Made by a program: the position numbers and the translations under genes | Shown here: positions 23,523 through 46,926 of the stretch, piece by piece | How the letters are laid out: every line of letters starts with the position of its first letter | Numbering within the stretch: position 1 is the first letter of the stretch | From: Streptosporangiales bacterium | GTDB taxonomy: Bacteria > Actinomycetota > Actinomycetes > Streptosporangiales > Streptosporangiaceae | Direction of reading: 5' to 3' | Length of the DNA: 62,398 nucleotides | NCBI GenBank assembly: GCA_009380095.1 | Contig: WHSL01000006.1 | Coordinates: 1-62,398, forward strand | Notes under the pieces: model-generated | The model's database searches: none | What the model was told of the DNA's origin: nothing | What the model saw: the letters and a program-made list of their open reading frames with translations, nothing else

Positions 23523-25010
23523 TCAGTCTCGCGCGGGGACCCAGCCGCCCTCGGTCAGCCGCTCCAGCACCCGCGCCACCGCCTCCTCCGCCGTGAGCTC
23601 GGAGGTGTCGACCACGAGGTCGGCGTCGGCCGGCACCTCGTACGGCGACGAGATGCCGGTGAAGTCCGGGATCTGGCCGACCCGCGCCTTGGCGTACAGC
23701 CCCTTGCGGTCCCGCCGCTCGCACACCTCCAGCGGCGTCGCCACGTGCACCAGCACGAAGTCGCCGGCCGCCGCCACCATCGCGCGCACCTCGTCGCGGG
23801 TGGCCGCGTACGGGGCGATGGGCGCGCAGATCGCCACCCCACCATGCCGGGTGATCTCCGCCGCCACGTACCCGATGCGCCGGATGTTGAGGTCCCGGTC
23901 GGCGCGGGAGAAGGTCAGCCCGGCGGAGAGCAGCGAGCGCACCACGTCCCCGTCCAGCAGCGTCACCGTGCGCCCGGCGTCGGTGATCGCCTCGGCGAGC
24001 CCGCGCGCCAGCGTCGACTTCCCCGAGCCGGACAGACCGGTGAAGAACACGGTCAGCCCCCGCTCCGAGCGCGGCGGCCGGTCGGCGCGCAGCTCGCGCG
24101 CCACCGCGGGCGGGGTGAACCAGTCGGGCAGCTCCTGGCCCGCGTCCAGCAGCTCGGCGACCCGTTCCTCCGGCAGCTCCTCGCGGGCGTGGTCGTGCTC
24201 GACCCGGTCCGCGGGCCGCCACACCTCCACGGCCGTGTCGTACACCCACGCCGGCGCGGGCACGACCTTCAGCGGCGTCTCCCCGGCGACCTGCTCGGGG
24301 GTGCCGGACTCCTCGGTGAGGAGCAGGTGCGTGGCCCCGTACGCGGCCGCGACGTACGCGTCCAGCACGGGGTCGGCGTGCCGCAGTGGCACCGGCACCA
24401 CCAGCGTGCCGGGCGGCAGCTCGGGGCGGGCGGCGAGCACCGCGCGGGTGGTGAGCTCGGGCCGCGCGCCGGCCACCACGGTCAGCACCAGCACCCGGGC
24501 GTCGAGCCGCTCCGCGACGTGCCGGAGCCGGCCCAGCGCGCGCCGGTGCAGCGGCCGCCGGGCGACCAGGGCGAGCACGGGCCCGTCGCCGAGCTCGGCA
24601 CGGGCCTCCGCCGGGGTCCGGCGCAGCCGCCGGAACGGGCCGTGCGCGGGCGGCTTCAGCGTCCGTACCGGGCCGGCCACGAGCCGCCCGTGCGTGCCGG
24701 GACGGCTCTCGGTGACCGTGAGCAGGGCCAGCGGCACGCCCTCGGGGTCGTTGAGCACCAGCCGCGGCGCGCCGTCGGCGTCGTCGGGCAGCTCCAGGGT
24801 GATCGGCACCGGCCAGGGGGTGCCGTCGGCCAGCCGCCCCGCCGCCGCCACCGTCGCCGCGTCGGCCGCGCCGAGGAAGCCGATGAGCGGCCGGAAGGCG
24901 CCGCCGAGCAGCATCTCCAGGTCGGCGAGGGCCTCCGGCGCGAGGGCACGGCCGGGCAGTTCGCGCAACTCCCCGGGGAGCTCAGAGGTGGCCTGCGTCG
25001 TCACGCTCAC
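23523..25010 (-). CDS. cysC: Adenylylsulfate kinase with degenerate ATP-sulfurylase-like N-terminal domain
   Basis: A 495-residue two-part protein. Residues 310-495 are a complete APS kinase: FFTGLSGSGKSTLARGLAEA (P-loop), LLDGDVVRSLLSAGL, NIRRIGYVAAEI and KGLYAKARVGQIPDFTGIS. It phosphorylates APS to PAPS. Residues 1-300 follow the PUA-like plus ATP-sulfurylase layout, but the expected QxRNPxHxxH catalytic motif reads VARRPLHRRALG, so sulfurylase activity is unlikely. Such fusions can act as APS kinases with a structural sulfurylase domain. It would use APS from the CysDN proteins encoded 18 kb away and feed the local sulfotransferases. Confidence 0.88.
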   Translation of the reverse strand: MSVTTQATSELPGELRELPGRALAPEALADLEMLLGGAFRPLIGFLGAADAATVAAAGRLADGTPWPVPITLELPDDADGAPRLVLNDPEGVPLALLTVTESRPGTHGRLVAGPVRTLKPPAHGPFRRLRRTPAEARAELGDGPVLALVARRPLHRRALGRLRHVAERLDARVLVLTVVAGARPELTTRAVLAARPELPPGTLVVPVPLRHADPVLDAYVAAAYGATHLLLTEESGTPEQVAGETPLKVVPAPAWVYDTAVEVWRPADRVEHDHAREELPEERVAELLDAGQELPDWFTPPAVARELRADRPPRSERGLTVFFTGLSGSGKSTLARGLAEAITDAGRTVTLLDGDVVRSLLSAGLTFSRADRDLNIRRIGYVAAEITRHGGVAICAPIAPYAATRDEVRAMVAAAGDFVLVHVATPLEVCERRDRKGLYAKARVGQIPDFTGISSPYEVPADADLVVDTSELTAEEAVARVLERLTEGGWVPARD

Positions 25011-25208
25011 TCCGATCCTAGGTCCCCACCCATTTGGCTAGAGGCTACGGCCGCGTTGCCGGCACCGCACGTCGGGGCGGCGACACGTGGGGGCGCTCGC
25101 GTGCCGATGCAGCACCTTGAGTGGGCGTATGGCTACGGTGAGTGACATGAAGTCCGGCGATTCTTCTCCCCCGCGCCGTGGGACCGTGCCGCGTCCGCGG
25201 GGCGGGGA

Positions 25209-26114
25209 GTGACCGCCCGCGTCGCGGTCGTGATCCTCTCCCACCGAGCCCCCGATCAGCTGCGGCGTCTGGTACGGCGGGTGGGCGAAGGCGGCGCCGC
25301 CGTGCCCGTCGTCCACCACGACCCCGGCGGTGAGCCGCTGACCTGCGGCCTTCCCGGCGCATTGCGGGTGCCGGCGCCGGTGCGCTGCGGCTGGGGGCGG
25401 CCGTCCATCGTGATCGCGGTACGGCGCTGCCTGGGGTTCGTCCGTGCCGAGCTGCCCGAGGTGCGCTGGACGTTGCTGGTCTCCGGTCAGGACTACCCGT
25501 TGCGGCCACTTCCGGACATCGCGGCGGAGCTCGCCGCGTCGCCGTACGACGCCTACCTGCGCCACTTCCCCCTCGGCGACCCGGCCGCGGACGTGCACCC
25601 CTGGCAGGCCGTCTGCCGCCGCCGCTACCTGCGGTCCGTACGGATCCCGGGCACCGCGCGCGCCCTGCCGCTGCCGTTCCGCCGGCGCCAGCCGTGGCCG
25701 CCCGGGACCACGCTGTACGCGGGCGGCCTGTGGGCGAACCTGAGCACGGCCGCGGTGGCCAAGGTGCTGGACTCGCCGCTCGCCCCGGAGGTGCTCCACT
25801 ACCTGCGCCGCGCGCCGATCCCGGACGAGGCCGCGGTGCCCACGCTGGCGCTGAACGGCGCCCCGGCGCTGCGCGTCGCCCCGGACAACCGGCGCTACGT
25901 CCGGTGGGACCGGGGCTCGTCGCACCCCCGCGTCCTCGGCCCCGCCGACCTCGAGGCGCTGAGCGGCAGCGACGCGTTCTTCGCCCGCAAGCTGGACCTC
26001 GCCGCGCACCCCGGCCTGGCCGACCGGATCGACGACCTGGCCTCCCGCCGCAGACCGCGGGCCCGGACACGTCCCGTGACCGATAACGCACCGAAGGCGG
26101 CCAAAGGTGTGTAA
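25209..26114 (+). CDS. Core-2/I-branching-type glycosyltransferase (GT14-like)
   Basis: A 301-residue glycosyltransferase. VAVVILSHRAPDQLRRLVRRV and LLVSGQDYPLRP match the beta-1,6-N-acetylglucosaminyltransferase-like (branch) family. YLRHFPLGD and YAGGLWANLS continue the fold, and the second half has VPTLALNG and RYVRWDRGSSHPRVL. It would add a sugar, often as a branch, to the growing polysaccharide. The GTG start at 25209 overlaps the stop of a 21-codon upstream frame beginning at 25147 (GTGA). It is first in the rightward polysaccharide gene set. Confidence 0.78.
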   Translation: MTARVAVVILSHRAPDQLRRLVRRVGEGGAAVPVVHHDPGGEPLTCGLPGALRVPAPVRCGWGRPSIVIAVRRCLGFVRAELPEVRWTLLVSGQDYPLRPLPDIAAELAASPYDAYLRHFPLGDPAADVHPWQAVCRRRYLRSVRIPGTARALPLPFRRRQPWPPGTTLYAGGLWANLSTAAVAKVLDSPLAPEVLHYLRRAPIPDEAAVPTLALNGAPALRVAPDNRRYVRWDRGSSHPRVLGPADLEALSGSDAFFARKLDLAAHPGLADRIDDLASRRRPRARTRPVTDNAPKAAKGV

Positions 26115-26196: not shown

Positions 26197-26329
26197 ACGG
26201 CGGAGTCGGCCGGCGGCCGATAGCCTTTCTACCTGGATAATGAGCCTTCTGTGTCTCGGGGGGCCACGACGATCAACGCGTTCACAAGGCGGTCGCATCG
26301 CCGGGGCCGGAAAGGAGCTGGCTAACCGT

Positions 26330-28063
26330 ATGGAGTCACAGCCGTCCGGTGCCATCGAGCTCACCGACTACGCCGTCATGCTGCGGCGCCGCTGGTGGGT
26401 CGTCGTGCTGGCCACACTCGCGGGCGGCCTGCTCGCCGCCGTCGCCATGGTCGTGCTGCCGAAGTCGTACGAGTCCAGCGCCTGGGTCCAGGTCAGCCCC
26501 GTCAACAGCACCAGCGGCGAGGGCGGGAAGGACGAGGTCAACCTCGACACCCAGGCCCAGCTGGTGAAGTCGGCGACGGTGGGGCAGGCGGCACTCGACG
26601 CGATGAAGAGCAACGAGCCCTATGTCGACGCCATCGAGCGGGTGGAGGTCGAGGTGCCTCCCAACAGCCAGGTCCTGACCATCACGTACGGCGACGAGAC
26701 GCCGCAGCTCGCGCAGCAGGGCGCGCACGCGTTCGCGCAGGCGTACCTGGACAACCGGGCGGCGCAGGCGCGGCAGAAGATCCGCAACGAGATCCAGGCC
26801 CTCCAGGCCGAGCTGCGCGAGCGCGGCAAGGAGCTGGACCGCTGGGCCAGCCGGGCCGGCACCGCGACCTCCGGCTCCACCGAGAAGGTGCTCGCCGACA
26901 CCCAGCTGCAGGTGGTCAAGAACGACATCGCGCAGATCAACGCGAAGCTCAGCCCGCTGAACACGGCGCTCACCAACATCACCCCGGGCGAGATCATCAC
27001 CGACTCCACACTGCCGGAGTCCGCGAGCAGCCCGATCCCGATCCTGTGGCTGGGCAGCGGCCTGATGATGGGCCTGCTCGCCGGCCTGATGCTCGCCTAC
27101 GTACGGGACCGCAGCGACAAGTACCTGCGCAGCGCGCGGGACGTCGAGCGGGTGGCCGACCTGCCGGTGCTGCTCAGCCTGCGCGGCAGCCGGAACCAGG
27201 GCGAGATCGGCCTGCTCCCCGCGCGCAGCCGGGCCGGCCAGAGCTTCCACGAGCTGTGCCACTCGATCACCGCGACGCTCGGGCACGGCAGCCACGTCAT
27301 CCTCGTCACCGGCGCCGCCGGCGGCCGCGGCGGCAACGTCGTGGCGGCCAACTTCGCGGCCGGCCTGGCGCGCACCGAGTCGGGCGTGCTGCTGGTCTGT
27401 GCCGACCTGCACTCCGACACCACCAGCCGGCTGCTCGACCTGCAGGACGGCCCGGGGCTGTCCGAGGTGCTGCTGGACCGGGCGGAGCTGTCCCGGGTGG
27501 AGCAGCGCTCCCCCGAGCTCGCCTCGCTGCGGGTCATCCCGCCCGGCATGGACGGCGAGCTGGCCTCCGACTTCCTGCAGCGCGACGCGATGGCGCAGCT
27601 CATCGGCCGTCTCCGGGAGACCGCGAGGTACGTGGTGATCGAGGCGCCGTCCACCTCGGCCGGCGCCGACGCGCAGGCCATCGCCGACGCCTCGGACGCC
27701 GCGCTGGTCGTCGTCGAGCTGCCCCGCACCCACCGCGACCAGGTCACCGAGGGCGTGCGGCAGCTGGACCGGATGGGCACCGCGGTGCTCGGCGCGGTCG
27801 TGCTGCCGTACCAGGGCCGGAGCACGCCACCGCGCCGGCCGGGGCCCGGCCCGCGCGCCCCCAGGCCGCGCCCGGTGTACCCGCAGCAGCAGGACGACTA
27901 CGGCCCCGTACAGCAGCCCGCGCCGCCGCAGCCGCGCAACGACCAGACCCGCGAGTTCCCGCAGATCAGGACCGACGGCGTGGACCGCGACCTGGGCGAG
28001 CCGGTGTGGCCGAAGCGCGGCGCCACGCTGTCCGACGAATCCTCCGACCGCCCGGGTCGTTAA
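26330..28063 (+). CDS. Wzz-type chain-length regulator fused to a degenerate BY-kinase-like ATPase
   Basis: A 577-residue polysaccharide co-polymerase. Residues 10-40 (YAVMLRRRWWVVVLATLAGG) are the first membrane helix of the Wzz domain. A coiled periplasmic-side region follows (IRNEIQALQAELRERGKELD), then a second helix (PILWLGSGLMMGLLAGLMLA). The rest resembles the CpsD/tyrosine-kinase ATPase, but the expected Walker A reads VTGAAGGRGGNVVAAN with no GK[ST]. The Walker A' aspartate region reads LLVCADLHSD. The tail is Pro/Gln-rich with few tyrosines. AAAGGAG precedes the ATG. It sets chain length with the Wzy-like neighbour. Confidence 0.82.
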   Translation: MESQPSGAIELTDYAVMLRRRWWVVVLATLAGGLLAAVAMVVLPKSYESSAWVQVSPVNSTSGEGGKDEVNLDTQAQLVKSATVGQAALDAMKSNEPYVDAIERVEVEVPPNSQVLTITYGDETPQLAQQGAHAFAQAYLDNRAAQARQKIRNEIQALQAELRERGKELDRWASRAGTATSGSTEKVLADTQLQVVKNDIAQINAKLSPLNTALTNITPGEIITDSTLPESASSPIPILWLGSGLMMGLLAGLMLAYVRDRSDKYLRSARDVERVADLPVLLSLRGSRNQGEIGLLPARSRAGQSFHELCHSITATLGHGSHVILVTGAAGGRGGNVVAANFAAGLARTESGVLLVCADLHSDTTSRLLDLQDGPGLSEVLLDRAELSRVEQRSPELASLRVIPPGMDGELASDFLQRDAMAQLIGRLRETARYVVIEAPSTSAGADAQAIADASDAALVVVELPRTHRDQVTEGVRQLDRMGTAVLGAVVLPYQGRSTPPRRPGPGPRAPRPRPVYPQQQDDYGPVQQPAPPQPRNDQTREFPQIRTDGVDRDLGEPVWPKRGATLSDESSDRPGR

Positions 28064-28117
28064 GGGGCTCCGCCGCATGAGGGACGCTACGGCGCGACGC
28101 CCCGGCGGAGTGCCCAG

Positions 28118-29557
28118 GTGACCGCCGCCACGGCGTTTCCGATCGTCACCGGGGCGCGTCCGGCCCGGGAGCGCCGGCTCCAACGACTCCGGCGGATCGG
28201 TGGCCGGCTGCTGCCGCCGGGCTGGCCGCTGGCCGGCCTGATCCTGGCCTTCCCCCTGTGGTGGCTGCTCGGCCTCGGCCAGTTCATCTTCTGGATCATG
28301 GCCGTGCCGATGCTGCTCGACCTGCTGCGCCGGCCGACGATCAAGGCGCCACCCGGGTTCGGGCTGTGGGCGCTGTTCCTGATCTGGACGGCCATCGGCG
28401 GGCTGTTCATCAACATGACGCCGACCGACACGCTCGCGGGCTCCGCCGGGATACTCGGCTACCTGATGCGGGAGATCAACTACCTGGTGGTGACGATCGC
28501 CCTGCTGTACGCCGGGAACCTGACCCAGCACGAGCTGCCCAACCGCCGGCTGGTGAAGCTGCTCGGCTGGCTCGGCATCGTCACCGTGGCGGGCGGCCTG
28601 CTCGGCACGTTCGCGCCCGGCTTCTCCGTGACCTCGCCGCTGGAGATGGTGCTGCCTGCCGGGCTGGCCGCCAACGAGTTCATGCAGACCCTGGTCCGCC
28701 CCGAGGCGGCGCAGATCATGGACGTGCTGGGCTACTCCGCGCCGCGCCCGAAGGCCCCCTGGGAGTACACGAACTCCTGGGGCAACAACCTCTCCCTGCT
28801 GCTGATCTGGCTGGTCATCGGCTGGTGGACGATGGGCGGCCGGGTGCAGCGCTGGATCTGCGCCATCGCCCTGACCCTCGCGGTGATCCCCATCGTCTAC
28901 TCGCTGAACCGCGGCCTCTGGGTCGGCCTGGCCATCTGCGCCGCCTTCGTGGCGTGGCGGTTCCTGCGCGGCGGGCGGGTGCTGACGCTCATCGTGCTGG
29001 CCTTCGTCACCCTGCTCGTGGGTGTCGGCGTGATGGCCTCGCCGCTGTTCGGCGTGGTGCAGGGCCGGCTGGCCAACCCGCACAGCGACTCCGGCCGCGC
29101 GGTGGCGAGCATGGCCGCCGTACGGGCCGCCAACGAGTCGCTCTTCCTCGGCTGGGGCAGCACTCGCGAGGCGCTCGGCAGCGGCCAGTCGATCGCGGTG
29201 GGCAAGACCGCCGACTGCCCGCAGTGCGGCAACAACGTGGTCGGCAACAACGGCCAGCTCTGGCTGCTGCTGATCTCCAACGGCTACGCCGGCGCGCTGC
29301 TGTACTACCTGTTCTTCGTGCAGGCGCTGTTCCGCTACCGGCATGATCAGTCGGCCATCGGAGTGGGCGCCAAGCTCACCCTGATCCTTCCGTTCCTCTA
29401 CATGTTCCTGTACTCGTCGCTGACCGCGCCGCTGTTCATCACCATGCTGGCGCTCGCCCTGCTGTGGCGGAACGACATGGAGACGCGTACGGCGGCCCGG
29501 CTGCTGGCCGCGACGCGGCGGGCCCGGGTGGTCCGGCAGGGGAGGAAGGCCGTATGA
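28118..29557 (+). CDS. O-antigen ligase/polymerase-like membrane protein (Wzy-type)
   Basis: A 479-residue protein with about eleven hydrophobic helices and the long periplasmic loop of the Wzy/WaaL superfamily (around residues 310-390, containing GRAVASMAAVRAANESLFLGW). It would polymerise lipid-linked repeat units on the outer face of the membrane. A CPQCGNN sequence in the loop, with a C-x-x-C pair, is unusual. It is 54 bases after the Wzz-like gene and its stop overlaps the next start by four bases (ATGA). Confidence 0.8.
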   Translation: MTAATAFPIVTGARPARERRLQRLRRIGGRLLPPGWPLAGLILAFPLWWLLGLGQFIFWIMAVPMLLDLLRRPTIKAPPGFGLWALFLIWTAIGGLFINMTPTDTLAGSAGILGYLMREINYLVVTIALLYAGNLTQHELPNRRLVKLLGWLGIVTVAGGLLGTFAPGFSVTSPLEMVLPAGLAANEFMQTLVRPEAAQIMDVLGYSAPRPKAPWEYTNSWGNNLSLLLIWLVIGWWTMGGRVQRWICAIALTLAVIPIVYSLNRGLWVGLAICAAFVAWRFLRGGRVLTLIVLAFVTLLVGVGVMASPLFGVVQGRLANPHSDSGRAVASMAAVRAANESLFLGWGSTREALGSGQSIAVGKTADCPQCGNNVVGNNGQLWLLLISNGYAGALLYYLFFVQALFRYRHDQSAIGVGAKLTLILPFLYMFLYSSLTAPLFITMLALALLWRNDMETRTAARLLAATRRARVVRQGRKAV

Positions 29558-30750
29558 CCGGACCATCCGCGTCGCGGGCCGCGTACCTGGCGGAGCTGAC
29601 CGGGCTGCTGTGGCCGACCCCGGCGCGCACCGTGCGCGGCCCCGGCCCTGGGCCGGGCTACCTGCTGGTGCCCTCGGCCGCCGACCCGCGCATGGTGCTC
29701 CCGTACGGTTCCCGCCGCGCGGCCGCCGCGGCGGTGCTCGGCTTCAACAAGGACCGCTCCCCCGGCACCCGGCTCCGCTCCCAGCTGCTGGCGTACGCGC
29801 TGCGCTGCGGGCTCGGGCGGCTCGCGCTGCGCGACCGGCTGACCGTCCTGCCCGAGCCGGGCGGCACCACCATCGAGGACGCGCTCACCGACGCGCTGGG
29901 CCGGCCGGTGGTGGCGGCGCTGCACGTGGGCCCCGCGCGGGCCAACCGCAAACCGGTGCTGCAGCTGCTCACCCCGGCGGGCCGGACCGTCGGGTTCGCC
30001 AAGCTCGGCGCGTCACCGCTGACCGCGCGGCTGGTCCGGGCCGAGACGGCGGCGCTGCGCCGACTCGCCGCCGCGGAGCTGCGGGCAGTACGGGTGCCCA
30101 GGGTGCTGCACGAGGGCACCTGGCAGGGCGCCCCGCTGCTCGTCCAGGAGGCGCTCCCGGTGTGGCGGCGGCGCGGCGCGCTGGGACCGGCCCGGCTGGC
30201 CGCGGCCATGGCGGAGGTGGCGCGCGCGACCGGGACCCGTACCGAGGAGCTCGCCGAGGGCGCGGCGGCCACGCTCGCCGACGGGGTGGCGGCGCTGCCC
30301 GTACGGCCCGAGCGCACCGCGCTGCTGGCCGCCCTGGACCGGCTGCGCGACCGCGCGGCGGGGGCGAAGCTACCGATGGGCGCCTGGCACGGCGACTGGA
30401 CCCGGTGGAACATGGCACCGCTCCGCGACGAGCTGCTGGTCTGGGACTGGGAGCGGTTCACCGACGGCGTCCCGGTCGGCTTCGACGCCCTCCACCACCA
30501 CCTGCAGGACGCGGTCTCCACGGCCGGCCGCGACCCGGCCGCCGCCGCGCACGGCCTGCTCGCCGCCGCACCCGGACTGCTGGCCCGGATGGACGTGCCC
30601 GCGCCGGCGCGGCATCCTGTGACCGCGCTCTACCTGATCGAACTCGCCACGCGATACCTCGAGGACCGGCAGGCCGAGGCGGGTTCCCCGCTCGGCCACG
30701 TGGACCGGTGGCTGCTCCCCGCGCTGAGCCGCCATCTCTCCGGCGACTAA
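29554..30750 (+). CDS. Kinase-like phosphotransferase (APH/choline-kinase fold) in the polysaccharide operon
   Basis: A 398-residue protein. The C-terminal half has the aminoglycoside-phosphotransferase-type catalytic core: MGAWHGDWTRWNMAP (H-G-D-x4-N) and LLVWDWERFTDG (metal-binding D). Upstream are a lysine-containing strand (VGFAKLGASPLTARLVRAE) and PLLVQEALP. The first 120 residues are not recognised. It may phosphorylate a sugar or polyol during repeat-unit synthesis; no antibiotic role is suggested by the context. Translationally coupled to the Wzy-like gene. Confidence 0.7.
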   Translation: MTGPSASRAAYLAELTGLLWPTPARTVRGPGPGPGYLLVPSAADPRMVLPYGSRRAAAAAVLGFNKDRSPGTRLRSQLLAYALRCGLGRLALRDRLTVLPEPGGTTIEDALTDALGRPVVAALHVGPARANRKPVLQLLTPAGRTVGFAKLGASPLTARLVRAETAALRRLAAAELRAVRVPRVLHEGTWQGAPLLVQEALPVWRRRGALGPARLAAAMAEVARATGTRTEELAEGAAATLADGVAALPVRPERTALLAALDRLRDRAAGAKLPMGAWHGDWTRWNMAPLRDELLVWDWERFTDGVPVGFDALHHHLQDAVSTAGRDPAAAAHGLLAAAPGLLARMDVPAPARHPVTALYLIELATRYLEDRQAEAGSPLGHVDRWLLPALSRHLSGD

Positions 30751-30816
30751 TGGGATGTCTGAGCCCTCCACCGGAGGCGCTCTGCACGACAGCTCTTCAC
30801 AGGCAAAGGACGATTT

Positions 30817-31683
30817 GTGAGCACCAAGGTACCGGCGCCGCTGCAGGAGGCCGCGCGCGCCGCGACCCGCGTGGCCGGCCGGCTGTCCGCACCGGCCCGG
30901 ATGCTGCCCGCGTTCCTCATCGTGGGCGCGCAGCGCGCGGGCACGACCTCGCTGTTCAAGGCGCTGATCCAGCACCGGCACGTGCTGCGGCCGCCGCTGC
31001 ACAAGGGGGTGCACTACTTCGACACCGACCACCACCGGGGGATGGCGTGGTATCGGGGGCACTTCCCGCTGCTGCGCACCGCCCGGCGCATCGAGGCCGC
31101 CACCGGCACCGCCCCGGTGACCGGGGAGTCCAGCCCGTACTACATGTTCCATCCGCTGGCGGCCGAGCGGATCGCCCGGGACCTGCCGGGGGTCAAGGTG
31201 ATCGTGGCGCTGCGCGACCCGGTGGAGCGCGCGTACTCGGCCTTCACCCACGAGCGGGCGCGCGGCTTCGAGCCGGAGGCCGACTTCGCGCGGGCGCTGG
31301 CGCTGGAGGAGGAGCGCCTGGCCGGGCAGGCGGAGCGGCTCGCCGCGGATCCGGCCGCGCGCAGTATGGCGCACCAGCACAACGGCTATCGGGCCCGCGG
31401 CCGCTACATCGAGCAGTTGGAGCGGCTGGAGCGGATCTTCACCCGGGAGCGCATGTTCGTCGTGCAGAGCGAGGACTTCTTCTCCGAGCCCGAGCCGATC
31501 TTCGCCGACCTGGAACGCTTCCTCGGCATCCCCGCGGCCTCGGACATCGCCTTCGAGCGGCACAACGCCCGCCCCCGCTCGCCGATGCCGGAGAGCCTGC
31601 GCGCGGAGCTCACCGAACACTTCGAGCCGTACGACGAGCGGCTGGCGACCTGGCTGGGAGGGACGCCTTCTTGGCGCAAGTAG
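30817..31683 (+). CDS. Sulfotransferase (heparan-sulfate-type)
   Basis: A 288-residue PAPS-dependent sulfotransferase. The 5'-phosphosulfate-binding loop is FLIVGAQRAGTTSLFKALIQ. The 3'-phosphate-binding element is VIVALRDPVERAYSAFTHER. KGVHYFDTDHHRGMAWYRGH and GESSPYYMFHP match the glycosaminoglycan N-/O-sulfotransferase-like group, and FVVQSEDFFSEP is the late conserved strand. No signal peptide is seen, so it should act on lipid-linked or nucleotide-linked sugar in the cytoplasm. It overlaps the flippase start by 13 bases. Confidence 0.88.
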   Translation: MSTKVPAPLQEAARAATRVAGRLSAPARMLPAFLIVGAQRAGTTSLFKALIQHRHVLRPPLHKGVHYFDTDHHRGMAWYRGHFPLLRTARRIEAATGTAPVTGESSPYYMFHPLAAERIARDLPGVKVIVALRDPVERAYSAFTHERARGFEPEADFARALALEEERLAGQAERLAADPAARSMAHQHNGYRARGRYIEQLERLERIFTRERMFVVQSEDFFSEPEPIFADLERFLGIPAASDIAFERHNARPRSPMPESLRAELTEHFEPYDERLATWLGGTPSWRK

Positions 31684-39353: not shown

Positions 39354-39399
39354 CCAACCGGCACTCCCAACACGATGCGCCACGCTAACATTACTCAGC

Positions 39400-40299
39400 G
39401 TGCACGATCTCGGGGGGGATCCGCACGGGGACGGCCATCGGCTGGTCTTCGTGGGGGGTTTGCATCGCAGCGGTACGACACTCCTGGCGCGCTGCCTCGC
39501 GGCGCATCCGGAGGTGAGCGGCTTCGCGGGGACGGGGGTCCCGGAGGACGAGGGCCAGCACCTGCAGAGCGTCTATCCCACGGCGCGCGCGTACGGCGGG
39601 CCGGGCAGGTTCGCCCGCCACCCGGGCGCGCACCGTACGGAGCGGCACGCCGCCGACCCGGGCGCCGAGGCGGCGGAGCTGCTGCGCCAGTGGCGCCCGC
39701 ACTGGGACCTGCGGCGGCCCGTCCTGGTGGAGAAGTCGCCGCCCAACCTGGTCATGACCCGCTACCTGCAGGCGCTGTTCCCGCAGGCCAGGTTCGTGAT
39801 GGTGGTCCGGCATCCGGTCACGGTCACGCTGGCCACCGCGCGCTGGCGGCGCCGCAGCCCGCTGGGCCGGCTCTTCGACAACTGGTTCCACGGCCACGCG
39901 CTGCTGACCGGCGACGCGGAGCGGCTGTCCCGGCTGCACGTGGTGCGGTACGAGCGGCTCGTCGCCGACCCGGCCGCCGTGCTCGGCGAGGTCGGCGCGT
40001 TCCTCGGGCTCGGCGGCACGGTGCCGGGCGACGCCGTCAACCCCGCGCGCAGCGACCGGTACCGCCGCCAGTGGGAGGCCATGGCCGGCTCCTCCCGGCC
40101 CTGGCGGCGGCTCGCGCACGCCCGCCTCGTCCACCGCTACGAGTCCGCGGCCCGCGCGCACGGCTACAGCCTCGCCGATCTCGACCACCTCGCCCCCGGT
40201 ACGTGGCCGCTCCCGGTAGATTGCCGGTCATGTTCGGCGGGAGCGACACCGAAGGTGCCGGGGGGCCGCGACGGCGCCGTCCGGTCCGCCTCGCGCTGA
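39400..40299 (+). CDS. Sulfotransferase family protein
   Basis: A 299-residue sulfotransferase. LVFVGGLHRSGTTLLARCLA is the PAPS 5'-phosphosulfate loop. RFVMVVRHPVTVTLATARWR is the 3'-phosphate-binding segment, and LHVVRYERLVADPAAVLGEV the typical late strand. VLVEKSPPNLVMTRYLQALF is also conserved in the family. The GTG at 39400 immediately precedes the first strand. The 3' end overlaps the next gene by 70 bases in another frame, an unusually long overlap. Confidence 0.83.
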   Translation: MHDLGGDPHGDGHRLVFVGGLHRSGTTLLARCLAAHPEVSGFAGTGVPEDEGQHLQSVYPTARAYGGPGRFARHPGAHRTERHAADPGAEAAELLRQWRPHWDLRRPVLVEKSPPNLVMTRYLQALFPQARFVMVVRHPVTVTLATARWRRRSPLGRLFDNWFHGHALLTGDAERLSRLHVVRYERLVADPAAVLGEVGAFLGLGGTVPGDAVNPARSDRYRRQWEAMAGSSRPWRRLAHARLVHRYESAARAHGYSLADLDHLAPGTWPLPVDCRSCSAGATPKVPGGRDGAVRSASR

Positions 40300-41369
40300 T
40301 CGTCCTCCTGGTGCTCGCGCTGCCGGCGGGCTTCGTCGCCTGCCGCGCCGCCGAGCGCTCCACCGCCGGCCCGGCTCCGCCGCCGCGGCCCTCGGACATC
40401 CCGTCCACGCTCGGCGGCAGCGCGTCCCCCGAGGCGACCGACAAGGGCTGGCACAAGCCGAAGCCGCCCGCGAAGAAGTGCAAGGTGACCGCGATCGCCG
40501 AGCCCACCTGCGGCGCATGGTGGGGGATCAGCCTGGGCGAGTACGAGCTGACCGGCCTGGAGCGCACCGTCGGGCGCAAGTTCGACATCGTGTACGAGTG
40601 GCACGGCGTGGACCAGCCCGCGGTGCCCACCGACGGCGAGCTCGCTCGGTCGCGTCAGGGGCGCTTCCTGCACGTGAACGTGGAGGCCCGGCGCTTCCTC
40701 CAGCCGGGGCACCCCGCGGTGCGCTATTCGGAGATCATCAACGGCCACTTCGACGGCCCGCTAAAGGCGCAGGCGAAGCGCTTCGGCAAGGCCGGCCAGA
40801 AGGTCTTCGTCACCTTCGACCACGAGGCCGACGCCAAGACCCGGTACAACGTGCGCGGCACGCCGGCGGAGTTCGTCGCGGCCTGGCGGCACATCGTGGA
40901 CCTCTACCGGAAGCACGGCGCGGACAACGTGGTCTTCGTGTGGAACGTCACCGGCTGGTCCGGCAACTTCGGGAAGCTGCCGGGACTGTGGCCGGGCAAC
41001 GACTACGTCGACTGGCTGAGCTGGGAGGGCTACAACATGTCCGCCTGCCGGCCGGAGCAGAAGGCGGTGCTGAGCTTCGACGCCGCGGTCCGCCCGATGT
41101 ACGACTGGGTGCAGCGGCACGGGCCCGATCATGGCATCGACCGGGACAAGCCCGTGATGATCAGCGAGATGGGCACGACCAGCCTCGGCGGCCATACCGC
41201 GGACTGGTACCGCGCCATCCCCGGCACGCTGCGCGACCTGCCGCGCATCCGCGCCGTGAAGCTGTGGAACGAGCGGGTCGGCCCGTGTGACTTCCGCCTG
41301 CCGGTGACAGGCGGCCTCGGGGCTTTCACGGCCGCGGGCGCGGATCCGTACCTCAACCACGCCCACTGA
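40230..41369 (+). CDS. Second GH26-like secreted protein
   Basis: A 379-residue exported protein. A short basic start and hydrophobic helix (RLALIVLLVLALPAGFVACRA) include a cysteine that could be a lipobox (GFVAC). A Pro-rich linker follows. The domain shows VFVTFDHEADAKTRYNVRGT with the acid/base glutamate, VVFVWNVTGWSGNF, and PVMISEMGTTSLGGHTADWY with the nucleophile glutamate. The cysteines of KKCKVTAIAEPTCGAWW may pair. It is a paralogue in type, not a close copy, of the GH26-like protein at 36307. It starts inside the sulfotransferase gene. Confidence 0.72.
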   Translation: MFGGSDTEGAGGPRRRRPVRLALIVLLVLALPAGFVACRAAERSTAGPAPPPRPSDIPSTLGGSASPEATDKGWHKPKPPAKKCKVTAIAEPTCGAWWGISLGEYELTGLERTVGRKFDIVYEWHGVDQPAVPTDGELARSRQGRFLHVNVEARRFLQPGHPAVRYSEIINGHFDGPLKAQAKRFGKAGQKVFVTFDHEADAKTRYNVRGTPAEFVAAWRHIVDLYRKHGADNVVFVWNVTGWSGNFGKLPGLWPGNDYVDWLSWEGYNMSACRPEQKAVLSFDAAVRPMYDWVQRHGPDHGIDRDKPVMISEMGTTSLGGHTADWYRAIPGTLRDLPRIRAVKLWNERVGPCDFRLPVTGGLGAFTAAGADPYLNHAH

Positions 41370-41377
41370 CGCGCCGG

Positions 41378-42301
41378 TCAGTAGTCGTAGCGGCGCCGGA
41401 GGGGGAGCGTCAGGAGCGAGACGAGGGCGCGCCGGGCGGCGCCGGGGGCGGTGCGCCAGGCCTCGTCGGCCCGCACCGCCAGCTCGCCGGTACGGAACCG
41501 CATGGGATTGCCGGAGACGGTGTGCGTGGGGGTGAGCCGGGCGACCCCGCCCTCCAGGGTCCCGGCGGGCACCTCGGGGACTCCGGCGAAGCGCGCCGCC
41601 TGCCTGAGGTGGCCGGACGGGTCCGCCACGAAGTCCTCGTACCGGATCCGGAGCGTCGGCACGCCGCGGGCGGCGAGCCGGTCGAACGCGGTGTTCTGTG
41701 CCAGCCAGTGCGCGGCCGCCTCCGGCGGCCGGTACGTGGCCATGAACTGCTCGGGACTGGTGGGGGTGGCGTCCGGCCGCGGTATCCGCTTGGTCCAGGC
41801 GTACGCCACCGCGCGCGGGTCCCGTACGACGTGCAGCACGCGCAGGTCGACGCCGTCGGCCCAGCGGAGGCAGGCGGCCAGCGAGGCGTGCTTGCTGGAG
41901 TCCACCACCGCGGGCGCCCCGGACACCTCCCTGACCGCCGCGTAGAGCCGCAGGTACGGCTCCGTGTAGCGCTCCACCCCGGCCCGCAGCGACGCGCCGA
42001 GCGTGGCGCCGGTGAGCCGGGGAAGGAAGCGCGTACGGTCCACCGCGCCCTTCAGCTCCGCCACCGTCGCGGGGTCGACCCGGTCCCAGCCGCCGAACGC
42101 GACCTCCCCCACCTTGCCCCAGAACGGGCAGGCGGAGAACGCCTCGCCGCAGCCGCACGGCTCGTCGTCGACGAGCGCGCGCCGCCACATGTGCACGGTC
42201 TCGCCGATCGAGCACACGCCGGGCAGCTCGCCGAGGAGCCGCTCGAGCAGGGTCGAGCCGCTGCGGCCGAGGCCGCCCACGAAGACGACGACCGGCGCCA
42301 C
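41378..42301 (-). CDS. Sulfotransferase family protein
   Basis: A 307-residue sulfotransferase. VVFVGGLGRSGSTLLERLLG is the PAPS loop, VLHVVRDPRAVAYAWTKRIP the 3'-phosphate-binding region and LRIRYEDFVADPSGHLRQAA the late strand. A CGCGEAFSACPFW cluster after the first helix is found in one bacterial subgroup of this family. It follows cysN by 4 bases, so the enzyme is co-transcribed with the genes that make its donor. Confidence 0.87.
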   Translation of the reverse strand: MAPVVVFVGGLGRSGSTLLERLLGELPGVCSIGETVHMWRRALVDDEPCGCGEAFSACPFWGKVGEVAFGGWDRVDPATVAELKGAVDRTRFLPRLTGATLGASLRAGVERYTEPYLRLYAAVREVSGAPAVVDSSKHASLAACLRWADGVDLRVLHVVRDPRAVAYAWTKRIPRPDATPTSPEQFMATYRPPEAAAHWLAQNTAFDRLAARGVPTLRIRYEDFVADPSGHLRQAARFAGVPEVPAGTLEGGVARLTPTHTVSGNPMRFRTGELAVRADEAWRTAPGAARRALVSLLTLPLRRRYDY

Positions 42302-42305: not shown

Positions 42306-43574
42306 TCAGCGCGCCTCGGTGATCATGCCGGCCCCGACGGTGGCGTTGGTGCTCTCGTCTACGAGGATGAAGCCGCCGGTGAACCGGTTGCGCTTGTACT
42401 CGTCCGCGAACAGCGGGTGCGTGACGCGCAGGCTCACCCGGCCGATCTCGTTCAGCCCCAGCCGGTCCGCGCCCTCGTCCCGGTGCAGCGTGTTCACGTC
42501 TAGCCGGTAGTGCAGGTCGCGCACCATGGCGCGGGCCGACCGGGTGGTGTGCTTGATGGCCAGCTTGGCCCGCGGAGTGAGCGCGCGCTCGTCGCTCATC
42601 CAGCACACCATGGCCTCGATGTCCTGCGTGACGTGCGGCTGGTTGTTCGGCCGGCACAGCATGTCGCCGCGCGAGATGTCGATCTCGTCCTCCAGCAGCA
42701 CCGTCACCGACATCGGCGGGAAGGCCTCGTCCACCGGGCCGTCCATGGTCTCGATGCGGGCGATCCTGGTGGTCAGCCCGGAGGGCAGGTGCATGATCTC
42801 GTCGCCGGGCTTGAGCACGCCCCCGGCCACCTGGCCGGCGTAGCCGCGGTAGTCGTGGAACCGCGGGTCCGTGGCGCGCTGCGGGCGGATCACGTACTGC
42901 ACGGGGAACCGTACGTCGATCAGGTTGCGGTCCGAGGCGATGTGCACGTTCTCCAGGTGGTGCAGGAGCGACGGGCCGTCGTACCACGGCATGTTGGGCG
43001 ACCTGTCGACGACGTTGTCGCCGTGCAGCGCGGAGATCGGCACGAACGTCAGGTCCGCCACGTCGAGCTTGGCGGCGAACCGGGTGAAGTCATCCCGGAT
43101 CCGCTCGAAGGTCTCCCGGTCGTAGTCCACCAGGTCCATCTTGTTGACCGCCACCACCAGGTGCGGCACCTGCAGCAGGGTGGCCAGGAAGGCGTGCCGC
43201 CGGCTCTGCTCCAGCAGCCCCTTGCGCGCGTCCACCAGGATGATGGCCAGGTCGGAGGTGGAGGCCCCGGTCACCATGTTGCGGGTGTACTGCACGTGCC
43301 CCGGGGTGTCCGCGATGATGAACTTCCGCTTGGGGGTGGCGAAGTACCGGTACGCGACGTCGATCGTGATGCCCTGCTCGCGCTCGGCCCGCAGGCCGTC
43401 GGTGAGCAGCGCGAGGTTGGTCTGCTCCTCGCCGCGCGCCAGGCTCGTCCGCTCCACGGCCTCGAGCTGGTCCTCGAAGATCGACTTGGAGTCGTACAGC
43501 AGCCGCCCGATCAGCGTGCTCTTCCCGTCGTCGACGGACCCCGCGGTGGCGAACCTCAGAATGTCCATGGTCAC
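42306..43574 (-). CDS. cysN: Sulfate adenylyltransferase GTPase subunit CysN
   Basis: A 422-residue GTPase that drives APS formation with CysD. FATAGSVDDGKSTLIGRLLYD is G1, ERTSLARGEEQTNLALLTDG and EREQGITIDVAYRYF contain G2, and IIADTPGHVQYTRNMVTGAS is G3. VVAVNKMDLVDYD is G4. The beta-barrel domains follow (RFPVQYVIRPQ, FTGGFILVDESTNATVGAGMI). It is the CysN-only form without a C-terminal APS kinase, consistent with a separate cysC at 23523. cysQ-cysD-cysN-sulfotransferase form one operon. Confidence 0.95.
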   Translation of the reverse strand: MTMDILRFATAGSVDDGKSTLIGRLLYDSKSIFEDQLEAVERTSLARGEEQTNLALLTDGLRAEREQGITIDVAYRYFATPKRKFIIADTPGHVQYTRNMVTGASTSDLAIILVDARKGLLEQSRRHAFLATLLQVPHLVVAVNKMDLVDYDRETFERIRDDFTRFAAKLDVADLTFVPISALHGDNVVDRSPNMPWYDGPSLLHHLENVHIASDRNLIDVRFPVQYVIRPQRATDPRFHDYRGYAGQVAGGVLKPGDEIMHLPSGLTTRIARIETMDGPVDEAFPPMSVTVLLEDEIDISRGDMLCRPNNQPHVTQDIEAMVCWMSDERALTPRAKLAIKHTTRSARAMVRDLHYRLDVNTLHRDEGADRLGLNEIGRVSLRVTHPLFADEYKRNRFTGGFILVDESTNATVGAGMITEAR

Positions 43575-43686: not shown

Positions 43687-44613
43687 TCAGAAGTAGCCCT
43701 CCCGCTTGCGGTCCTCCATGGCGGCCTCGCTGGTCCGGTCGTCGGCGCGGGTCTGGCCGCGCTCGGTGATCCGGGTGGCGGCGATCTCCGCGATCACCTC
43801 GTCGATCGCCACCGCGGTGGACTTCACCGCGCCGGTGCAGGTCATGTCGCCGACGGTGCGGTAGCGCACGGTGGCCTCGAACACCGGCTCGTCCTCGCCG
43901 CGGGCGACGTACGGGTTGTCCGCCAGCAGGATGCCGTCCCGCTCGAACACCGCGCGCGGGTGCGAGAAGTAGACCGACGGGATCTCCAGGCCCTCGCGCT
44001 TGATGTAGTCCCAGATGTCCAGCTCGGTCCAGTTGGACAGCGGGAACGTACGGATGTGCTCCCCGCGCCGGATCCGCCCGTTGAACAGGTTCCACAGCTC
44101 GGGCCGCTGGTTCTTCGGGTCCCACTGGCCGAACTCGTCGCGGAAGGAGAACACCCGCTCCTTGGCCCGGGCCTTCTCCTCGTCGCGCCGGGCGCCGCCG
44201 AACGCGACGTCGAACTCGTGCTCCTCGATGGCGTCCAGCAGCGCCGTGGTCTGCAGCCGGTTGCGGCTGGCCCAGCGGCCCGCCTCCTCGGTCACCTTGC
44301 CCGCGTCGATGGCGGCCTGCACGGACGCGACCACCAGCCGTACGCCCAGCTCCTCGACCCGCCGGTCGCGGAAGTCGAGCACCTCCGGGAAGTTGTGGCC
44401 GGTGTCCACGTGCATCACCGGGAACGGCAGCGGTGCCGGCCAGAACGCCTTCTCCGCCAGCCGGAGCATGACGATGGAGTCCTTGCCGCCGGAGAACAGC
44501 AGCACCGGCCGCTCGAACTCCGAGACCACCTCGCGGAAGATGTGGATGGACTCGGCCTCGAGCACGTCGAGCTGCGAGAGCATGTAATCGCTTCGGAGCA
44601 TGGAGAAACCCAT
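43687..44613 (-). CDS. cysD: Sulfate adenylyltransferase subunit CysD
   Basis: A 308-residue PP-loop ATPase. VLLFSGGKDSIVMLRLAEKA is the SGGxDS pyrophosphate-binding loop. VMHVDTGHNFPEVLDFRD, FGGARRDEEKARAKERVFSF and FPLSNWTELDIWDYI are diagnostic for CysD. It activates sulfate to adenylylsulfate with CysN. The start is at 44613 or the in-frame ATG at 44601; the frame stays open to 44808, but that extension lies inside cysQ and is not conserved. It begins 17 bases after cysQ. Confidence 0.95.
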   Translation of the reverse strand: MGFSMLRSDYMLSQLDVLEAESIHIFREVVSEFERPVLLFSGGKDSIVMLRLAEKAFWPAPLPFPVMHVDTGHNFPEVLDFRDRRVEELGVRLVVASVQAAIDAGKVTEEAGRWASRNRLQTTALLDAIEEHEFDVAFGGARRDEEKARAKERVFSFRDEFGQWDPKNQRPELWNLFNGRIRRGEHIRTFPLSNWTELDIWDYIKREGLEIPSVYFSHPRAVFERDGILLADNPYVARGEDEPVFEATVRYRTVGDMTCTGAVKSTAVAIDEVIAEIAATRITERGQTRADDRTSEAAMEDRKREGYF

Positions 44614-44630
44614 CGGTGCGGCGGTCTCGG

Positions 44631-45410
44631 TCAGGAAGGTGCGACGTCCCGAACCCCGGTCAGCAGCATCGCTCCGAGCTCGGGTCGGCTGACCAGGATA
44701 TCGGGCAGGTAGGGGTCGGCCTGGTTGTAGGTCAGGGGTGTCCCGTCGATCCTGGTGGCGTGCGCCCCCGCGGCCTGCACGACCGCGACGGGAGCGGCGG
44801 AGTCCCACTCGTACTGGCCGCCGGCGTGCAGGTAGGCGTCGACCGTGCCCTGCAGCACCGCGGCGATCTTGGCGCCGGCCGAGCCCATCGGGACGAGCTC
44901 GGCCCCCACGCCCTCCTCGTCGAGCCGGCGGGCGAGATCCTCCACCAGCGCGGGCGCGCGGGTACGGCTGGCGGCGATGCGGACCGGCCCGCCGTCACGC
45001 GCCGGCAGGGCGGGCGGGTCGTACGTGCCGAGCGTGCGGCCCTGCGCCGGCAGCGCCACCGCGCCCGCGGTGAGCCGCCCGGCCTCCCAGAGCGCGACGT
45101 GCACGGCCCAGTCCGTACGGCCCTCCTCGGCGAACTCGCGCGTGCCGTCCAGCGGGTCGACGATCCACACCCGGGTGGCGGCGAGCCGGGCCGGATCGTC
45201 CTTGCCCTCCTCGGACAGCACGGCGTCACCCGGCCGGGTGCGTGCGAGCGCGGCCATCAGGTACTCGTGCGACTCCCGGTCGCCGGTGTCGCGGAGCACC
45301 CTGGGGTCGGCGAAGCCCGCCTTGTCGCGCAGCCGCAACAGCAGCTCGCCCGCATCCGTGGCCAGATCGCGGGCGAGCTCGTGATCGTCTCGCACGTTGG
45401 AGTTCGTCAT
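44631..45410 (-). CDS. cysQ: 3'(2'),5'-bisphosphate nucleotidase CysQ
   Basis: A 259-residue inositol-monophosphatase-fold enzyme that destroys PAP, the inhibitory by-product of sulfotransferases. DAVLSEEGKDDPARL, VWIVDPLDGTREFAEEGRTD (DPLDGT metal site) and HAGGQYEWDSAAPVAVVQAA (WDxA) are all present. Having this gene first in the cysDN-sulfotransferase operon supports use of PAPS for sulfation rather than only for cysteine synthesis. Confidence 0.92.
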   Translation of the reverse strand: MTNSNVRDDHELARDLATDAGELLLRLRDKAGFADPRVLRDTGDRESHEYLMAALARTRPGDAVLSEEGKDDPARLAATRVWIVDPLDGTREFAEEGRTDWAVHVALWEAGRLTAGAVALPAQGRTLGTYDPPALPARDGGPVRIAASRTRAPALVEDLARRLDEEGVGAELVPMGSAGAKIAAVLQGTVDAYLHAGGQYEWDSAAPVAVVQAAGAHATRIDGTPLTYNQADPYLPDILVSRPELGAMLLTGVRDVAPS

Positions 45411-45462
45411 TGCGCAATTGTCCCCGAAGTGATCATGCCTCCCGGAACGGGAGGAGGAGGGT

Positions 45463-46926
45463 TCAGTAGGCTCCGGAGCCTCGTACGACGGCGGACCAGG
45501 TCTTCCAGAGGATCTGTAGATCGAGGGCGAGCGACCAGTTCTCCACGTAACGCAGGTCGAGGCGGACCGATTCCTCCCAGGACAGGTCGGCTCGGCCGCT
45601 CACCTGCCACAGGCCGGTCATGCCCGGCTTGACCACCAGCCGGCGGCGCACGTCGTCGCCGTACGAGGCCACCTCGGCGGCCAGCGGCGGGCGCGGGCCG
45701 ACCAGCGACATGTCGCCGAACAGCACGTTGAACAGCTGGGGCAGCTCGTCCATCGAGTACCGGCGCAGGAAGGCGCCGACCCGGGTGACCCGGGGATCTT
45801 TCTTGATCTTGAAGAGCACGCCGTCGTGCTCGTTGTTCAGCTCCAGGTCGGCGCGGAGCCGCTCGGCGTCGGCGACCATGGTGCGGAACTTGAAGACCGT
45901 GAACTCCTCGCCGGCCTTGCCCACCCGGGTCTGCCGGAACAGTGCCGGCCCGTGGCTGGTGGCGCGGATGATCACCGTGAGCACCAGGAACACCGGCGAG
46001 AGCACCAGCAGCGCCAGCGCGGCGGCGACCCGGTCGAACAGGCTCTTCACCAGCTGCCTGCCGCCGACGAGCTCCGGGTGCTCCACGTGCAGCAGCGGCA
46101 GCCCCGCCACCGGGCGGATCGTGGTGCGCGGGCCGGCCACGTCCATCAGCGCGGGCGCCACGCACAGGTCCGTGCCGGTCTTCTCCAGCCGCCAGGCCAG
46201 CCGGCGCAGCGCGAGACCGTCCATCTCCGGGCAGGCCAGCACGGCCACCGTGTCCGCCGCGGAGCGGTCCACCGCGTCCACGACCTCGGAGAAGTCGCCG
46301 AGCACCGGGACCCCGTCGATGTCGGAGACCGGGCCGAAGCTCCAGGACACCGGCAGGCAGACGGCGGCGACCTGCATGCCGTGGTGCGTCTCCCGGCGGA
46401 ACTGGCTGATCAGATCCTTCACGGCGGCGCGGTGGCCGACCGCGACGACCCGGCGCATGCACCGGCCCTGCGCGCGCATCCGGTGCAGCCGCTTGCGCAG
46501 CGCGTAGCGGCCCAGCAGGCCGAGCAGGGTGACCGTGGGCAGCGCGATGACCACGTACCCACGGGCCAGGTCGGTCTTGGTCGCGTACGCCACGATGGCG
46601 ACGGTGGCGGTGAGCGAGACGCCCGCCTGGAGCACCCGGCGGAACTCGTCCGACCCGATGCCGAAGAAGCGCGGCTCGTACGCCCGGACCAGCGCCACGG
46701 TGCCGAGCCAGATGAACGGCAGGGCCGCGGTGATGATCGCGTACGGGAGGGCGAAGCCGCCGGTCGGGTTGTCGAAGCGCCAGAGCAGGGCGAGCACGCC
46801 CGCGGCCAGCGCGCAACAGAAGTCCACGAGGAGCGCCCACCGGATGTAGTGGGCCTCCCATCGGGTGGCCTGCCGCGCGACAGGCGTCTGAACCACACTG
46901 ATGTGCAGATCGTCGACGACCGCCAT
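45463..46926 (-). CDS. Polyprenyl glycosylphosphotransferase (WbaP/CpsE-type sugar transferase)
   Basis: A 487-residue initiating enzyme that moves a sugar-1-phosphate to undecaprenyl phosphate. The N-terminal half has four to five membrane helices and a CoA-binding-like domain (RVVAVGHRAAVKDLISQFRR). A further helix (RVAAALALLVLSPVFLVLTV) precedes the catalytic part: VFKFRTMVADAERL, VGAFLRRYSMDELPQLFNVL, GDMSLVGPRPPLAAEV and RLVVKPGMTGLWQVSGRAD. The start follows a long intergenic region. It supplies the first step of the polysaccharide pathway. Confidence 0.93.
   Translation of the reverse strand: MAVVDDLHISVVQTPVARQATRWEAHYIRWALLVDFCCALAAGVLALLWRFDNPTGGFALPYAIITAALPFIWLGTVALVRAYEPRFFGIGSDEFRRVLQAGVSLTATVAIVAYATKTDLARGYVVIALPTVTLLGLLGRYALRKRLHRMRAQGRCMRRVVAVGHRAAVKDLISQFRRETHHGMQVAAVCLPVSWSFGPVSDIDGVPVLGDFSEVVDAVDRSAADTVAVLACPEMDGLALRRLAWRLEKTGTDLCVAPALMDVAGPRTTIRPVAGLPLLHVEHPELVGGRQLVKSLFDRVAAALALLVLSPVFLVLTVIIRATSHGPALFRQTRVGKAGEEFTVFKFRTMVADAERLRADLELNNEHDGVLFKIKKDPRVTRVGAFLRRYSMDELPQLFNVLFGDMSLVGPRPPLAAEVASYGDDVRRRLVVKPGMTGLWQVSGRADLSWEESVRLDLRYVENWSLALDLQILWKTWSAVVRGSGAY

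Follow-up and report, generated by a model that had tools for sequence, protein, structure and literature searches.

A candidate sulfated-polysaccharide locus of a Streptosporangiales bacterium and its neighboring sulfate activation genes

Gene content of the locus

The window analyzed here is a stretch of 62,398 nucleotides from a Streptosporangiales bacterium (assembly GCA_009380095.1, contig WHSL01000006.1). Positions 23523–46926 contain a polysaccharide gene cluster in which three sulfotransferase genes, ST1 to ST3, occur together with Wzx/Wzy-type assembly genes and with genes of sulfate activation: CysN, CysD and CysQ, and SatK, a two-domain kinase of adenosine 5'-phosphosulfate (APS). 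A locus of this kind, of which the present one is a variant, was published recently: wps-1 of Actinoplanes missouriensis (Tezuka and Ohnishi, June 2026; PMC13390465). We consider it likely that the product is a sulfated extracellular polysaccharide assembled by the Wzx/Wzy route, that the CysDN enzyme is shared between cysteine synthesis and sulfation, and that 3'-phosphoadenosine 5'-phosphosulfate (PAPS) is dedicated to sulfation.

A preliminary description of the window had listed the gene types of this region, and all of them were recovered at their coordinates by Pfam and NCBIfam searches and, where single-sequence matches were weak, by a profile for glycoside hydrolase family 26 (GH26) and by position for Wzy. 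Two genes listed below were absent from that description, the kinase with an aminoglycoside phosphotransferase (APH) fold at 29554–30750 and the minus-strand beta-propeller-like protein. GT denotes glycosyltransferase families, BY-kinase a bacterial tyrosine kinase, and ORF an open reading frame; Wps names refer to the products of wps-1.

23523–25010, minus strand: SatK, two-domain APS kinase (APS_kinase 1.5e-57, PUA_2 1.9e-17, ATP-sulfurylase 1.3e-11)
25209–26114, plus strand: GT14 / Branch-type glycosyltransferase (Pfam Branch 3.4e-9)
26240–28063, plus strand: Wzz-type chain-length protein with BY-kinase-like domain, WpsK-like (Pfam Wzz 3.4e-9)
28118–29557, plus strand: Wzy-type polymerase, WpsJ-like (Wzy_C 4.5e-4, below cut-off)
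29554–30750, plus strand: APH-fold small-molecule or sugar kinase, WpsI-like (HGDxxxxN, AlphaFold model, Foldseek)
30817–31683, plus strand: sulfotransferase ST1, WpsH-like (Sulfotransfer_1 9.1e-15)
31671–33251, start approximate, plus strand: Wzx-type flippase of the MatE family, WpsG-like (MatE 1.3e-8, above cut-off)
33255–35882, start approximate, minus strand: beta-propeller-like protein with apparent signal peptide (DUF5122 propeller 2.5e-4, below cut-off)
36289–37383, plus strand: GH26 glycoside hydrolase with N-terminal hydrophobic segment, WpsE-like (GH26 0.0015, below cut-off)
37393–37848, plus strand: Alg14-like glycosyltransferase subunit (Pfam Alg14 2.1e-11)
37848–39353, start approximate, plus strand: Alg13-like domain fused to GT2 (Glyco_tran_28_C 2.2e-15, Glycos_transf_2 3.3e-24)
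39400–40299, start approximate (ORF 39211–40299), plus strand: sulfotransferase ST2 (Sulfotransfer_3 1.8e-26)
40230–41369, start approximate, plus strand: second GH26-like glycoside hydrolase (profile of 28 sequences)
41378–42301, minus strand: sulfotransferase ST3, WpsB-like by position (Sulfotransfer_3 3.3e-17)
42306–43574, minus strand: CysN, ATP sulfurylase GTPase subunit (TIGR02034 578 bits, cut-off 336; GTPase domain 1.3e-44)
43687–44613, start approximate, minus strand: CysD, ATP sulfurylase catalytic subunit (TIGR02039 442 bits, cut-off 397; PAPS_reduct 2.6e-45)
44631–45410, minus strand: CysQ-type 3'-phosphoadenosine 5'-phosphate (PAP) phosphatase (Inositol_P 3.6e-35; NCBIfam cut-off missed, 102 vs 229 bits; best solved relative the PAP phosphatase 5djf, 6.5e-74)
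45463–46926, minus strand: WbaP/WcaJ-type polyprenyl glycosylphosphotransferase (Bac_transf 6.2e-68; TIGR03025, EPS_sugtrans, above cut-off)

The closest solved structure to ST1 in a PDB search is the sulfotransferase 3rnl (1.1e-20), followed by heparan sulfate 3-O- and N-sulfotransferases at 1e-13 to 3e-11, with 3-O-sulfotransferase 5 at 1e-13. Its PAPS-binding motifs, GxQRxGTT and RDPxxRAxSA, are invariant in 16/16 aligned orthologs. The corresponding motifs of ST3 are nearly as well kept (GRSG[ST]T in 87/87 sequences and RDxRxVAxxW in 85/87); the PDB search with ST3 returned a single weak match, 0.0081. In a relative, G011, six ST1-like genes form two tandem triplets (C118:22183–24916 and C136:23664–26738).

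Conservation across relatives was examined in 80 named loci, the best 80 of 528 relatives, a set that is biased to close relatives of ST1. Wzy is found at its conserved position in 79/80 of them, and its identity is therefore upheld despite the sub-cut-off score. The second GH26-like protein had no GH26 match when its single sequence was searched against Pfam. A profile of 28 sequences, both GH26 proteins of the window included, matched solved GH26 chains named 'Endoglucanase H' at 3.4e-47, and the GH26 identity of both proteins is upheld on that ground. Judged by its motifs, the Wzz of the locus is pseudokinase-like, as its BY-kinase-like domain lacks the P-loop lysine and GxxxxGK[ST] occurs in 0/90 relatives.

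The kinase at 29554–30750 has no Pfam match, and a PDB sequence search with it was empty. Its AlphaFold model has a mean predicted local distance difference test score of 95.3, and the best Foldseek match of the model is fructosamine-3-kinase (E 8.5e-7; TM-score 0.47 by query and 0.61 by target); the model also resembles glucosamine kinase (1.9e-6), maltokinase and aminoglycoside phosphotransferases. The HGDxxxxN motif is kept in 102/102 relatives, and each of the 80 named loci pairs ST1 with an APH-fold kinase whose catalytic residues are intact, which suggests that the polymer is phosphorylated as well. Two reduced loci, in G006 and G007, have lost ST1 and retained the kinase.

Among the window proteins that were scanned, no Pfam match to GT26 (WecG/TagA/CpsF) or DUF4262 was obtained, and an Rfam scan of the window found nothing beyond one tRNA. 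The only methyltransferase gene to set beside WpsF, at 22686–23408, adjoins mfd outside the polysaccharide block.

Conservation of the gene order and comparison with known systems

When 60 related genomes were searched with ST1, 39 had a match at E ≤ 0.001, and 31 neighborhoods were fetched around such matches, several of them on stretches that end at contig ends. CysD lies on the same stretch in 17/31 and SatK in 19/31. The usual order in the family of the window is mfd, methyltransferase, SatK, Wzz, Wzy, kinase, ST1, Wzx and, further along, GT2, ST3, CysN, CysD, CysQ, WbaP, pth, rplY, prs and glmU; an alternative layout places SatK beyond mfd.

Besides metagenome genomes, the named loci represent 17 named genera: Micromonospora, Glycomyces, Catellatospora, Dactylosporangium, Virgisporangium, Longispora, Actinomadura, Thermomonospora, Streptosporangium, Planobispora, Sphaerisporangium, Acrocarpospora, Nonomuraea, Allonocardiopsis, Blastococcus, Geodermatophilus and Modestobacter. 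ST1 and the kinase are present in all 80, Wzx in 77, Wzz in 76, GH26 in 73, an ST3-like second sulfotransferase in 66 and GT2 in 64. Since the order Wzy-kinase-ST1-Wzx is kept in 71/80 (with Wzz also in order in 68/80), the arrangement is not due to chance. The outcome that the preliminary description had named as refuting, homologous loci devoid of cys genes and sulfotransferases amid randomly varying neighbors, is not the one observed. The view in that description of a sulfated surface polysaccharide as the best reading holds, given the invariant PAPS motifs of ST1 and a gene set that recurs across genera.

A wider sample of the phylum comprised 296 genomes, with a threshold of E ≤ 1e-50 and eight candidates scored per genome. 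Matches to the ST1 profile were found in 23/296, one of them being the genome of the window. Strong matches outside the class of the window, within the same phylum (G314, G183, G105 and others), suggest a wider spread.

The wps-1 locus (wpsA-K) encodes WpsA (GT2), WpsB (sulfotransferase), WpsC (GT26), WpsD (DUF4262), WpsE (GH26), WpsF (methyltransferase), WpsG (Wzx), WpsH (heparan-type sulfotransferase), WpsI (kinase-like), WpsJ (Wzy) and WpsK (Wzz), and it adjoins AMIS_7390, of the Sat/APS-kinase family (PMC13390465). By description, wps-1 and the window (26240–33251) have Wzz, Wzy, kinase, sulfotransferase and Wzx in the same order. Both have a GH26 protein, a second sulfotransferase of another family and a GT2 enzyme, and in both a gene of the Sat/APS-kinase family lies on the Wzz side, in the window with one GT14 gene in between. 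The window has, beyond wps-1, WbaP, Alg14/Alg13, GT14, a third sulfotransferase, a second GH26 protein and linked CysN, CysD and CysQ, whereas WpsC and WpsD have no match among the window proteins scanned. Other Micromonosporaceae (Catellatospora, Dactylosporangium) match the gene order of the window.

In A. missouriensis, sporangia were reportedly defective, and in most mutants squashed, after deletion of AMIS_7390 or of any one of the genes for Wzz, Wzy, Wzx, WpsH and the kinase; the WpsB mutant had normal sporangia and released fewer spores, and WpsD was dispensable (PMC13390465). The severe defect of the AMIS_7390 mutant was called 'unexpected' by the authors, who linked it to sulfur amino acids. 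None of the mutants differed macroscopically on the two agars used. The authors proposed a sulfated polysaccharide and described their own proposal as unverified, so that the existence of actinomycete sulfated polysaccharides was raised there without proof (PMC13390465). The terms PAPS and cysD occur nowhere in the text of the article.

The preliminary description had regarded such polysaccharides as rarely described in actinomycetes. On novelty it needs correcting, as a locus of this kind was published in June 2026 with the same inference. That article, PMC13390465, is the only account of an actinomycete sulfated-polysaccharide locus that we found in the Creative Commons-licensed PubMed Central literature; a Frankia nodH paper concerns Nod factor sulfation (PMC5059922).

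The capsule cluster of Vibrio sp. KMM 8419 contains cysC, cysN and cysD together with sulfotransferases, its sulfated product was determined, and its authors regard the combination of cys and sulfotransferase genes as a hallmark (PMC11641403). In that organism the cys genes form a second set and an ATP-binding cassette transporter carries out export, whereas the window holds the only cys copies found and a Wzx/Wzy system. The A. missouriensis authors state that, among bacteria, sulfated polysaccharides are confined to cyanobacteria; the Vibrio capsule contradicts this. The synechan cluster of Synechocystis, responsible for a sulfated exopolysaccharide, resembles the window by description in its sulfotransferases and Wzx/Wzy-type genes and differs in being cyanobacterial (PMC8205485); a text search of that article returned no PAPS terms.

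Sulfate activation genes and the APS branch point

The preliminary description had credited the locus with a PAPS supply of its own, and this claim has to be corrected. A duplicated supply was rejected for the genome of the window, which has one APS kinase and one CysD over cut-off, both of them inside the window. Copy numbers were surveyed in 41 genomes, 26 with an ST1 ortholog (E below 1e-80) and 15 without; G002, G014 and G033, which have 37–43% ST1 matches, were counted among the latter. Weak matches were dropped: those to the CysD profile below 50 bits, which came from CysH and a short fragment, and those to APS kinase of about 20–24 bits. One sub-cut-off CysD of 364 bits, in G028, was kept. 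A single CysD was counted in 24 of the 26 genomes that have an ST1 ortholog, and a single APS kinase in 25 of them. Pairs on the same contig lie less than 20 kb apart in 19/20 cases for ST1 and CysD and in 20/20 for ST1 and APS kinase. No monomeric ATP sulfurylase over the family cut-off was found in any of the 41 genomes. As the sole ATP sulfurylase found, CysDN would be common to cysteine synthesis and sulfation.

In G006, G007, G016 and G018, cysN-cysD-cysQ-pth and SatK (beside mfd) are on one stretch from which most or all polysaccharide genes are gone. Because the cys genes persist in relatives without polysaccharide genes, the cys cluster is the general sulfate-activation set of the cell and not an extra set for the polysaccharide. 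Two of these loci, L092 (G018) and L104 (G016), have the compact mfd/SatK and cysNDQ/pth layout with the polysaccharide genes absent; between cysN and SatK of L104 is a membrane protein that, by eye, we take to be TauE/SafE-like. G016 also has extra cysD-cysN-APS-kinase cassettes adjoining Sulfotransfer_3 genes, on G016:C11 (L105) and G016:C5 (L106). These are a dedicated PAPS supply of the type imagined in the preliminary description, in another genome. The smallest distance between CysD and APS kinase in G016, 1.8 kb, belongs to a separate cassette; that of the mfd-pth pair is 3.3 kb.

SatK combines a C-terminal APS kinase with a degenerate ATP-sulfurylase-like N-terminal domain, and by annotation its family is that of AMIS_7390. 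Its best solved relative is 3cr8 (1.8e-96), which we take to be the Thiobacillus denitrificans enzyme. The P-loop GxSGxGKST is intact in 53/53 SatK sequences. The canonical sulfurylase motif QxRNxxHxxH is found in 0/53 and its second histidine in 1/53; solved true ATP sulfurylase domains read QTRNPMHR(V/A)H at this site and 3cr8 reads QARQPMHRAQ. From these residues, the sulfurylase-like domain of SatK is probably inactive. For Entamoeba histolytica, an APS kinase has been described that is joined to a sulfurylase-like domain without activity, and the T. denitrificans protein has the same composition (PMC13213808). The N-terminal sulfurylase-like domain with an altered motif and the C-terminal APS kinase are common to these enzymes and SatK, which differs in being actinobacterial, in adjoining a polysaccharide locus and in being known from sequence.

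The CysH of the same genome is on another contig (L089:9496–10269) and has paired cysteines, CxxC and ECGIH, which we take to be an APS-reductase signature. It adjoins an ORF that is presumably sulfite/nitrite-reductase-like (named by eye). CysH matches were obtained in 41 genomes, and all of the 30 CysH loci examined have CC, CxxC and ECG[IL]H. With a CysH of this type, cysteine synthesis should not need PAPS, so that among these genes only those for APS kinase and CysQ qualify as specific to sulfation. PAPS thus appears to be made only for sulfation, with APS as the branch point. A branch point of this kind, between CysH and PAPS-using sulfotransferases, is known for Mycobacterium tuberculosis CysD/CysNC (PMC4373884). 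We apply the same logic here, with CysDN shared and SatK and CysQ serving sulfation; M. tuberculosis has its APS kinase fused to CysN, whereas the window encodes CysN by itself and joins the kinase to the sulfurylase-like domain.

Proposed pathway and alternative explanations

The sequences themselves show which genes are present, that their order is conserved, the state of the motifs, the copy numbers and the type of CysH. From these we infer every catalytic step, that the product is sulfated, what the kinase acts on, and a role at the spore or mycelial surface. WbaP would place the first sugar on undecaprenyl phosphate, and the Alg14/Alg13, GT2 and GT14 enzymes would lengthen the lipid-linked unit, which the APH-fold kinase (probably sugar-directed) and the three PAPS-dependent sulfotransferases would decorate in the cytoplasm. 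Wzx would then flip the unit, Wzy and Wzz would polymerize it, and the GH26 enzymes may trim the polymer outside. CysDN would activate sulfate to APS, which is predicted either to be reduced directly by the APS-reductase-type CysH or to be phosphorylated to PAPS by SatK, and CysQ would clear the by-product PAP. Dedication of PAPS to sulfation offers an explanation of the 'unexpected' sporangium defect of the AMIS_7390 mutant, and the normal look of the A. missouriensis mutants on agar fits an APS kinase that is not needed for cysteine.

Several observations weigh against this proposal. The sulfated product is a prediction from gene content here, as it is a proposal in A. missouriensis (PMC13390465). 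A second cys copy may have been missed, since the assembly consists of 413 contigs and has a completeness of 97.27%. The 15 genomes without an ST1 ortholog also carry CysD and APS kinase, and a cys gene is in the covered flank of no more than 33/80 named loci (31/65 where the flank is at least 20 kb), with none in the other 47/80 (15/80 have less than 20 kb of flank); co-location may therefore in part reflect an old chromosomal position. PAPS has other users outside the locus, since three further Sulfotransfer_3 genes lie elsewhere in the genome (C85:11981, C203:19007, C243:36972) and 18/18 genomes tested, 12 of them without an ST1 ortholog, have Sulfotransfer_3 matches. One SatK of the 53, L099, keeps both HxxH histidines, without the Q and N.

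Could the cys genes be bystanders, that is, housekeeping genes at an ancestral mfd-pth site between which the polysaccharide locus lies by chance? Their proximity would then be functionless, even if the polymer were still sulfated. This has to be taken seriously, as a lesser but substantial possibility, given cysN-cysD-cysQ beside pth and SatK beside mfd in relatives without ST1, the four above among them, and the many named loci that lack a flanking cys gene. However, SatK flanks 23/80 named loci, including loci of Catellatospora, Dactylosporangium and Longispora, where CysD does not. A. missouriensis mutants that lack AMIS_7390 resemble those that lack wps-1 genes (PMC13390465), and the compact genome G010 has retained just the kinase and ST1, directly beside cysN. 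The same genome, having no Wzx, Wzy or Wzz matches in the stretch, lends something to another explanation, that the sulfotransferases act on a lipid-linked sugar, a glycolipid or another surface glycoconjugate and that the Wzy-made exopolysaccharide is itself unsulfated. We find this unlikely, because ST1 stands inside the Wzy-kinase-Wzx run in the great majority of named loci and its solved relatives include sulfotransferases of a polysaccharide, heparan sulfate.

It could also be argued that SatK truly has both activities, ATP sulfurylase and APS kinase, and serves cysteine synthesis, as its family is described in PMC13390465, and the retention of a sulfurylase-like domain that is still partly recognized is in keeping with that. 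The canonical sulfurylase motif is, however, missing from all 53 SatK sequences, no ATP sulfurylase match exceeded the cut-off in the 41 genomes, and both CysDN and an APS-reductase-type CysH are present; we regard bifunctionality as very improbable and reject it.

Compared with the published account of wps-1, what is new for the proposed sulfated polysaccharide is the correction of the PAPS supply, the degenerate sulfurylase domain, a dedicated PAPS branch as an explanation of AMIS_7390, the kinase in every named locus and the breadth across genera. More speculatively, and with considerable doubt, the polymer may be old and widespread in actinobacteria, sulfated and phosphorylated, made by a Wzx/Wzy pathway with heparan-type sulfotransferases and an obligatory APH-fold sugar kinase, and coating spores, sporangia or hyphae in many genera beyond Actinoplanes. 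In one lineage the sole sulfate-activation genes would have become bound to the pathway, setting the partition of APS between cysteine and surface sulfation. If the reading of SatK as a PAPS source that cysteine synthesis can do without is right, sulfated matrix polysaccharides would be common in industrially used actinobacterial families, primary sulfur metabolism would be tied to development, and there would be a defined set of bacterial sulfotransferases of the heparan type together with a source of PAPS and a phosphatase for PAP.

The beta-propeller-like protein at 33255–35882 has its propeller-like part in the middle, and relatives of it are in the flank of 40/80 named loci.

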